A stretch of DNA of 64,000 nt from Aminobacter niigataensis (GTDB lineage Bacteria > Pseudomonadota > Alphaproteobacteria > Rhizobiales > Rhizobiaceae): positions 62,001 to 126,000 of the forward strand of contig NZ_JACHOT010000002.1 in the NCBI RefSeq assembly GCF_014200015.1. Direction: 5' to 3'. Both the position numbers and the translations under genes were made by a program. This document shows positions 37,572 through 48,286 of the stretch, one piece after another (position 1 is the stretch's first letter; every line of letters starts with the position of its first letter). The notes under the pieces were generated by a model, which was not told the DNA's origin, searched no databases, and was given only the letters and a program-made list of their open reading frames with translations.

Positions 37572-37583
37572 CAGGGCATAGAC

Positions 37584-37640
37584 CCGTGGTGATTTGGCCG
37601 GTCGGCTTGCAGCCACGTTAAACAAGTCGCTAAAGGGCCG
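37584..37640 (+). ncRNA. SAM-II riboswitch (metA motif)
   Basis: The sequence CGTGG-TGATTTGG..GCTTGCAG-CCACG..TTAAACAAGTCGCTAAAG closely follows the SAM-II consensus. P1 is CGTGG/CCACG (37585-37589 with 37613-37617), with conserved TGATTT and GCTTGC in the loop and the AAGTCGCTAAAG pseudoknot strand (37625-37635). SAM-II aptamers bind S-adenosylmethionine and repress methionine genes in Alphaproteobacteria. metA directly downstream confirms the assignment. Confidence 0.93.
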
Positions 37641-37652
37641 TTTGCGATCCGT

Positions 37653-37692
37653 AAACCGGCTTTGCGACAGCAATGCCGGTTTTTGTTTTTTG
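37653..37692 (+). terminator. riboswitch-linked terminator before metA
   Basis: The 8-bp stem AAACCGGC/GCCGGTTT (37653-37660 with 37675-37682) is followed by TTGTTTTTTGG. The T tract runs straight into the metA Shine-Dalgarno (TGGAG at 37691). Its left edge and loop (CTTTGCGAC, 37660-37668) can instead pair with GTCGCTAAAG of the aptamer (37626-37635, one bulge), a candidate antiterminator. Confidence 0.8.
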
Positions 37693-47083: not shown

Positions 47084-47182
47084 ACGCCAACTTTTTCCAT
47101 GAGGCCGCCTGACTGAGACCGCGCGCCATCCTTAATCGGTGCGTTATCGTCGCTTGGTCCGCCAGAACTGAAGGTAAGTAAC

Positions 47183-47479
47183 ATGTCCCGCGCTTGCGAA
47201 CTCACCGGCAAAGCCGTCATGACCGGCAACAATGTGAGCCACGCCAACAACAAGACCCGTCGTCGCTTCCTGCCGAACCTGGTCAACGTCACGCTCATCT
47301 CCGAGACGCTGAACCAGAACGTGCGCCTGCGCATTTCGGCCAACGCCCTGCGTTCGGTCGAGCATCGCGGTGGCCTCGACGCCTTCCTGATCAAGGCTGA
47401 CGCCGAAGAGCTGTCGCAGCGCGCGCGCCTGCTCAAGAAGCAGATCGCCAAGAAGACCGCCGAGCAGGCTGCAGCCTAA
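47183..47479 (+). CDS. rpmB: 50S ribosomal protein L28
   Basis: Ribosomal protein of 98 residues. The N-terminal [32 protein letters not shown] is diagnostic of L28, as is the middle [20 protein letters not shown]. The alanine- and lysine-rich C-terminal extension is usual for alphaproteobacteria. GAAGGTAAGTAAC precedes the ATG. A transporter gene with a structured leader follows. Confidence 0.97.
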
Positions 47480-47576
47480 TCGACGAATCAAGGCGGGGGA
47501 CGACCGCCTGGAGCCTCTGCGCGCCGCAAGGACGATAGAGGCTCCGACCAAATCCGCCCGGGCGACGCCCGTACCG

Positions 47577-47605
47577 CTGGTTCCATTACCCAGGATAAAA
47601 AAATG
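47577..47605 (+). ncRNA. preQ1-I riboswitch-like element over the yhhQ start
   Basis: CTGG-TTCCATTAC-CCAG-GATAAAAAAATG fits the compact preQ1-I plan. P1 is CTGG/CCAG (47577-47580 with 47590-47593). The loop begins GGTTC and ends ACCC as in known aptamers. The A-rich tail ATAAAAAA docks on P1, and the pseudoknot pairs CATT (47584-47587) with AATG (47602-47605), so the start codon is in P2. The AGGA ribosome site overlaps P1. P1 is only 4 bp, one weaker point. The downstream gene is a queuosine-precursor transporter, the right function. Confidence 0.6.
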
Positions 47606-48286
47606 AACTCCGGTTCAAAATATCTGCCTTTCGTGGCGGCCATGGCGCTTGTCGTCGTCGCTTCCAATATTCTCGTCCAGTTCCCGATGCAGGGACAGGT
47701 CGGATCGCTCGCGCTTGCCGACATCCTGACCTGGGGCGCCTTCACCTATCCCTTCTCGTTCCTGGTCACCGACCTCGCCAATCGCCGCTACGGGCCGAAG
47801 CTGGCGCGGCGGATCGTCTTCGTCGGTTTCATGATCGCGGTGATCTGCTCGATCGTCATTCCGCCGGTCCTGTTCCGCTACGGACTCATTCCGTTCGACA
47901 CTGCCGCCGATCGCCTGGCCCGCATCGCGGTGGCCTCCGGCACCGCCTTCCTGACCGCTCAGCTGCTCGACGTCACCGTGTTCAACTGGCTGCGCCGGCA
48001 GAGCTGGTGGCGCGCACCGATCTTCGGCACGCTGGTCGGCTCGGTGTTCGACACGGCGATCTTCTTCGGCGTCGCCTTCGCCGCAGCCTTCGCCTTCCTC
48101 GGCCCCGAGGACGCCTTCGCGATCGAACCGGCACCGCTGTTCGGCATCATGGCCACCGAAGCCCCTCGCTGGGTTTCCTGGGCGCTTGGCGACCTGATCG
48201 TGAAGCTGTTGATCGCCGTCTTCGCGCTGATCCCCTACCGGCTGATCGCCACGCGCTGGAGCCAACCTGCGCTGGCCGCCCACTAG
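47603..48286 (+). CDS. yhhQ: queuosine precursor transporter (YhhQ/COG1738)
   Basis: Imports preQ0/preQ1 for queuosine synthesis. The 227-residue membrane protein has about six helices, and the motif ILTWGAFTYPFSFLVTDLANRRYG carries the D-x-x-N-R/K core of the family. Its start codon lies in a preQ1-I-like pseudoknot, so it is probably repressed by its own substrate. gluQ at 3.2 kb, which modifies queuosine in tRNA-Asp, uses the end product. Confidence 0.9.
   Translation: MNSGSKYLPFVAAMALVVVASNILVQFPMQGQVGSLALADILTWGAFTYPFSFLVTDLANRRYGPKLARRIVFVGFMIAVICSIVIPPVLFRYGLIPFDTAADRLARIAVASGTAFLTAQLLDVTVFNWLRRQSWWRAPIFGTLVGSVFDTAIFFGVAFAAAFAFLGPEDAFAIEPAPLFGIMATEAPRWVSWALGDLIVKLLIAVFALIPYRLIATRWSQPALAAH

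Follow-up and report, generated by a model that had tools for sequence, protein, structure and literature searches.

Introduction

The preQ1-I riboswitches of solved structure have a P1 helix of 5 to 6 pairs, and the type III form is almost exclusively gammaproteobacterial, according to the available portions of PMC10622847. For the E. coli type III riboswitch, the same portions describe the P2 pairs C9-G30, C10-G29 and U11-A28, an L2 cytosine, C14, that pairs with preQ1, and contacts of preQ1 with U6 (minor-groove edge) and A27 (PMC10622847). In the available text of both the review PMC11625349 and PMC10622847, type III buries the ribosome site AAGG through pairing with CCU. That part of the review does not use the term 'start codon', mentions an initiation codon a single time on a different matter and characterizes type III through AAGG, and neither 'start codon' nor 'AUG' occurs in the text of PMC10622847. 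According to the available part of PMC3766115, most preQ1 riboswitches are in Firmicutes, and one or two lineages are proteobacterial. No preQ1 riboswitch is marked for Brucella abortus in the accessible part of PMC9495176, and a term search of the accessible text of Corbino et al. 2005 (PMC1273637), which deals with motifs of alphaproteobacteria, returned no mention of yhhQ.

Here we describe a 29-nt element at the start of yhhQ in the window, that is, the whole stretch of 64,000 nt from Aminobacter niigataensis that was analysed (contig NZ_JACHOT010000002.1, positions 62,001 to 126,000). It is a real leader element under strong conservation and, judging from sequence comparison, very likely a preQ1-I-like translational riboswitch with the start codon inside P2. 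The type III model reportedly stems from McCown et al. 2014, with 293 sequences. No title or abstract in the literature searched, a search with subscription papers mostly outside it, reports the element; the sequence set of McCown et al. 2014 may include these sequences.

Results

Position and parts of the element

The element, CTGGTTCCATTACCCAGGATAAAAAAATG, lies on the forward strand at 47577-47605, with the sequence and coordinates given in the earlier note, and its 3' end is the yhhQ start codon. The P1 5' strand CUGG (47577-47580) is complementary in all four bases to the 3' strand CCAG (47590-47593), and C47577-G47580 can pair with C47590-G47593. The loop between the two strands reads TTCCATTAC and comprises L1, UUC (47581-47583), the first U of which is the counterpart of E. 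coli U6; the P2 5' strand, CAU (47584-47586), which complements the start codon and corresponds to E. coli C9 C10 U11; L2, UA (47587-47588); and a specificity C (47589), the counterpart of E. coli C14, for which a ligand-pairing role is proposed by analogy. The tail after P1 is GATAAAAAA. L3, GAUAAAAAA (47594-47602), has as its final A the counterpart of E. coli A27 and is followed by the P2 3' strand AUG (47603-47605), which is the yhhQ start codon. A Shine-Dalgarno-like AGGA (47592-47595) lies 7 nt 5' of the AUG and is half inside P1; the overlap between AGGA and P1 claimed earlier thus exists, at A47592 and G47593, and is limited to these two bases.

P2 had been proposed as CATT/AATG. The three pairs CAU/AUG stand, and the fourth, T47587-A47602, was rejected because the loop base there varies between T, C and A among the parsed loci; L2 in relatives reads TA, CA, AA, AC, CT, AT, CAA or CAC.

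yhhQ and the upstream gene

The gene that begins at the element, yhhQ (47603-48286, forward strand, a 227-aa ORF), belongs to the COG1738 family of queuosine-precursor transporters. Its product matched Vut_1 of Pfam (E 6e-29) and TIGR00697, queuosine precursor transporter, at 110 bits against a cut-off of 50.95, which bears out the earlier naming of the gene. One YhhQ match was found in the window's genome, the nearest named relatives of the protein were from Aminobacter species, and no relatives were found in viral contigs. Association with a gene of queuosine synthesis or salvage, a feature of the preQ1-I class, is thus present through yhhQ.

The conserved gene before yhhQ is rpmB, encoding ribosomal protein L28 (47183-47479, forward strand). 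L28 was found upstream in all 157 family loci with at least 900 nt of upstream sequence, at a distance of 30 to 229 nt from the element. By eye, several leaders from other families of the order resemble L28 ends too, so the rpmB-yhhQ pair may predate the element. A scan of 47100-47700 for terminator-like and sigma-70-like sites, which did not extend to other promoter types, found none; together with the constant presence of L28 upstream, this makes a shared rpmB-yhhQ transcript plausible. Control by attenuation or termination in the gap between the two genes, rather than at translation, would fit the two GC-rich hairpins predicted between rpmB and the element (about 47491-47545), but the same stretch contained no terminator-like site and the start codon itself belongs to the conserved unit, which makes this the least probable of the alternatives weighed here. 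As separate observations, the hairpin GGCGGGGGACGACCGCC at 47492-47508 closely follows rpmB, with no terminator-like T-run found, and a GGCGG-loop-CCGCC hairpin occurred in the 200 nt that precede the element at 111 of 216 loci, compared to 4 of 58 leaders from other families.

Conservation of the element

A set of 175 yhhQ loci, fetched by YhhQ similarity and representing the closer matches of the searches, was made up of 35 loci from genus and family genomes, 80 named loci (chiefly from Mesorhizobium, with Aminobacter represented as well) and 60 loci of greater divergence taken from the places listed for the family search. A strict pattern for the element matched in 170 of the 175. A parser, in which a T at the start of L1, the CAT, the specificity C, at least three of the four P1 pairs, a run of at least five A in L3 and any of ATG, GTG or TTG were required, found the element upstream of 173 of the 175 genes, with a total tail length of 8 to 13 nt; in the two failing loci (L164 and L172) the element was missing altogether. 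When 43 loci fetched with the element model itself were added, 216 of 218 were parsed and, as the sets overlapped in part, these amounted to 198 unique contexts. The yhhQ reading frame followed the element in frame in 199 of the 216 (tblastn). Of the remaining 17, 15 came from yhhQ places but included less than 150 nt of downstream sequence, one (L295) ended at a contig edge and one (L223) had a TIGR00697 match a short way downstream.

The information per base, calculated from the 178 unique contexts that have a 29-nt element, was 0.15 bits in the 50 nt upstream, 1.83 bits in the element and 0.58 bits in the 30 nt of coding sequence after the ATG. The flanks thus diverge, and the constraint on the 29 nt is far above that on the adjacent coding sequence. 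On this comparative evidence, conservation in 173 of 175 yhhQ loci while the flanks diverge, a chance origin is excluded, and the element that had been proposed from a single sequence is real. Position by position, CTGG and the loop motif CAT-N-N-C were conserved as strongly as the ribosome site. L1 was TTC in 156, TGG in 37 and TGC in 23 of the parsed loci, its first T being required by the parser. The specificity C (C13 of the alignment) was invariant, and it too was required by the parser. The start codon was ATG in 216 of 216 loci although GTG and TTG were permitted.

Distribution across genomes

A covariance model trained on 21 distinct elements scored 51.9 bits at the element in the window's genome, and the second-best place reached 13.2 bits; repetition of the element at several genes of its own genome was rejected on that runner-up score, with 150 of 2519 first-look candidates scored. 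In the family, the model matched (E ≤ 0.001) in 268 of 297 genomes and YhhQ in 281 of 297. By hand tally, in which unlisted matches were assumed to lie at yhhQ, 267 of the 281 yhhQ genomes carried the element and 14 did not. For this tally two genomes with matches away from yhhQ (G015 and G130) and one with the element at a contig edge and the gene itself missing (G259) were dropped, and two were added by eye (G110 and G181; loci L146 and L147), in which the tail is longer and a 6-bp P1 is possible. The element varies very little within this family, whose members are soil and host-associated bacteria.

In other families of the order, nothing similar was seen by eye or with a loose parser in the leaders of 58 of 64 genomes with a YhhQ match, a few of these matches being weak, near 30% identity. 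A class-wide model search of 385 genomes gave matches at E ≤ 0.1 in 137, the window's own genome counted, and scores outside the own genome of at most 25.8 bits, compared to 38 to 53 bits at family yhhQ genes; surrounding ORFs were viewed for two of these genomes. A phylum-wide pattern covering the TTCCAT subtype matched in 14 of 398 genomes, 11 in the family and 3 outside, and the reversed control gave 6 outside. Neither the class nor the phylum sample rose above noise outside the family. In the genomes sampled, the element was seen only in one family. We take this family to be Rhizobiaceae in the GTDB sense, judging from the named loci.

Some yhhQ leaders had what looked by eye like remnants. 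One genome of 1.5 Mb (G119) lacking the element has a clear decayed copy, ctggttccattaccaagattaagaATG, and fainter remnants occur in G015 and G099. These three leaders (L248, L258 and L246) are from genomes between 1.1 and 1.5 Mb in size, which suggests that reduced genomes have lost the control.

The P1 and P2 helices

The four P1 pairs were standard in 216, 215, 216 and 216 of the 216 parsed loci, respectively, the parser having needed at least three. Two changes were compensatory: U2-A16 to C-G, giving CCGG/CCGG (L222), and G3-C15 to A-U, giving CTAG/CTAG (L213). Each compensation rests on one locus, and one unmatched change, CCGG/CCAG, was found (L088). In the covariation alignment, which comprised 28 distinct elements out of 38 (all 27 with a length of 29 nt, plus that of L222, with 10 of other length omitted), double-sided change at two P1 pairs was reached by 2 of 500 shuffles and by no slid control. 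A further measure in this test, that of further pair types, was no higher than in the shuffles (500 of 500). The closing pair G4-C14 next to the pocket was invariant, as is characteristic of the preQ1-I class. The concern that P1 is shorter than in studied examples was justified, with 4 pairs in most loci compared to 5 to 6; only 22 of 216 loci could form a fifth pair (8 G-C, 4 C-G and 10 U-G).

P2, CAU/AUG, was complementary in all 216 parsed loci and invariant, the CAT being demanded by a parser that only 2 of the 175 protein-fetched loci failed. Such invariance within the family is expected because the 3' strand is AUG. Thus, of the covariation that the earlier note had asked for, CTGG/CCAG has two compensations and CATT/AATG none. 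Compared to one E. coli type III sequence, P2 differs by a single matched pair exchange, C10-G29 to A-U.

Folding energies did not set the element apart. The hairpin energy of -3.4 kcal/mol was no better than that of shuffles (z 0.0), and P1 was not part of the predicted minimum fold in stretches of 81 and 126 nt. The support for the structure is comparative, not energetic.

The unremarkable energy and the lack of P2 covariation inside the family could also be expected of a conserved ribosome-binding site or A-rich translation enhancer, or of a protein or small-RNA site, with no ligand and no pseudoknot, and the AGGA, the A-run and the ATG could be conserved for translation alone. This is very unlikely, as CTGG and the loop CAT-N-N-C match the ribosome site in conservation, P1 is compensated twice and the genome has one strong place rather than many genes. 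Moreover, 8 of the 216 parsed loci have a C directly after P1 and thereby lose AGG while P1 and P2 are retained, which argues that the pattern is not merely a ribosome site; a plain ribosome site was rejected on these grounds. In all 8 of these loci the base before P1 is G, compared to 125 of the other 208, and few lineages are involved.

Correspondence with the E. coli riboswitch and choice of ligand

The Rfam preQ1 model RF00522 gave no match in the window at its gathering cut-off and none at E ≤ 10 on 47573-47615. The scan that had been proposed as a check therefore came out negative. It is uninformative because the proven E. coli type III leader was likewise without an Rfam match. Elsewhere in the window Rfam matched a tRNA gene at 284-365 on the reverse strand (57.1 bits).

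The E. coli K-12 yhhQ leader (9175-9220 of L208) reads ttgggttccctcaccccaatggttaatcaaaaaggtacaatATG, with the loop UUCCCUCAC. The nine-base loops of Aminobacter, UUCCAUUAC, and of E. coli, UUCCCUCAC, align without gaps and differ by an A at the C10 position and a U at the C12 position, the latter being variable in the family. The type III loop is short and pyrimidine-rich, begins with UU next to P1 and ends in AC ahead of the P1 3' strand. It is found complete in the window (UUC CAU UA C) and incompletely in relatives, where 60 of 216 loci have UGG or UGC as L1 and 21 of 216 have C or T rather than A at the end of L2. The three contact bases (the first U of the loop, the C before the P1 3' strand and the A before the P2 3' strand) were kept in 173 of 175 loci, all three being required by the parser. 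The earlier comparison with preQ1-I aptamers in general is upheld by this agreement of loop and contact bases, and is corrected in that the nearest relative is type III.

Since the element has the same contact bases as E. coli type III, preQ1 would be the first-choice ligand. QueF was found over the Pfam cut-off in 168 of 297 family genomes, including the window's own. By a hand tally in which draft genomes may miss genes, the 268 genomes matched by the model divide into about 158 with QueF and about 110 without it; in these about 110 carriers either preQ1 is imported, or another 7-deazaguanine is sensed or queuine salvaged. Salvage of a queuosine precursor without preQ1 synthesis may be common in the family. 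The same fold could thus sense preQ0 or queuine instead of preQ1, given that the carriers without QueF would not convert preQ0 to preQ1 and that YhhQ subgroups have been proposed to carry preQ0, preQ1 or queuine (PMC5372724, available portion). This is unlikely, though less so than the other two alternatives: QueF is encoded in the window's own genome, imported preQ1 would also account for the genomes without QueF, and the contact bases are those of E. coli type III, for which the accessible text gives an approximately 138-fold loss of affinity for preQ0 relative to preQ1 (PMC10622847).

Discussion

These findings point, with a probability of roughly 0.8, to an off-switch of translation that belongs with preQ1-I and is nearest to type III. 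At high levels of preQ1, or of a close 7-deazaguanine, the leader would adopt an H-type pseudoknot in which P1 has 4 bp, the A-rich tail occupies the P1 minor groove, C47589 pairs with the ligand and P2 joins the loop CAU to the yhhQ AUG. Formation of P2 would make the start codon inaccessible, along with half of the ribosome site, and the transporter would not be made; without ligand, P2 would open and yhhQ would be translated. The net effect would be feedback repression of the precursor importer. Because yhhQ lies behind rpmB and control would act at the yhhQ start codon, yhhQ would be regulated and rpmB spared. We infer the three-dimensional fold, the ligand and the off direction.

If this is true, the Mesorhizobium and Aminobacter family controls uptake of a queuosine precursor via an unannotated riboswitch missed by Rfam, and what salvage-only bacteria sense becomes testable. 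It would also mean that one compensatory pair can swap the expression platform of an aptamer from ribosome site to start codon, and would provide a 29-nt test case in which ligand sensing and the start codon sit in one shared helix.

A second compact riboswitch, SAM_alpha (SAM-II), is located in the window at 37576-37653 on the forward strand (Rfam, 79.6 bits). We take SAM-II to differ from the element in sequence, ligand and gene. It is also alphaproteobacterial and is likewise a compact pseudoknot that directly occludes translation (PMC10907184, available portion). With preQ1-I types I and II, in what is available on the Tte, Bsu and Can structures and RF00522, the element shares P1, the A-rich tail, the L1 U and the C before the P1 3' strand. 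In contrast, those types have a bigger loop with purines above the pocket. The AC before P1 in the window is shared with types II and III, whereas type I has UC, as far as the same material goes.

With E. coli type III the element shares the yhhQ gene, the nine-base loop with the positions U6 U7 C8 C9 U11 A13 C14, the A-rich tail, the A before P2 and an H-type pseudoknot topology, which is predicted here. In contrast, P2 there holds the ribosome site AAGG, paired with CCU, and here AAUG with the start codon, its strands being CAU and AUG; P1 is 5-6 bp there and 4 bp in the window; the linker is GGUUAAUC there and a short GAU here; and type III is almost exclusively gammaproteobacterial, whereas the element was found in one alphaproteobacterial family. 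Since neither AAGG in P2 nor a P1 of 5-6 bp is present, the element is not a member of type III as defined; by analogy, it would work like one. We lean towards a separate, fourth preQ1-I subtype, apparently of one alphaproteobacterial family, in which one pair exchange made the start codon the sequestered signal in place of the ribosome site. If so, this subtype would govern a salvage-only economy in lineages without QueF and, with its 29 nt including the AUG, would be more compact than the E. coli element, which has 36 nt in its natural form.
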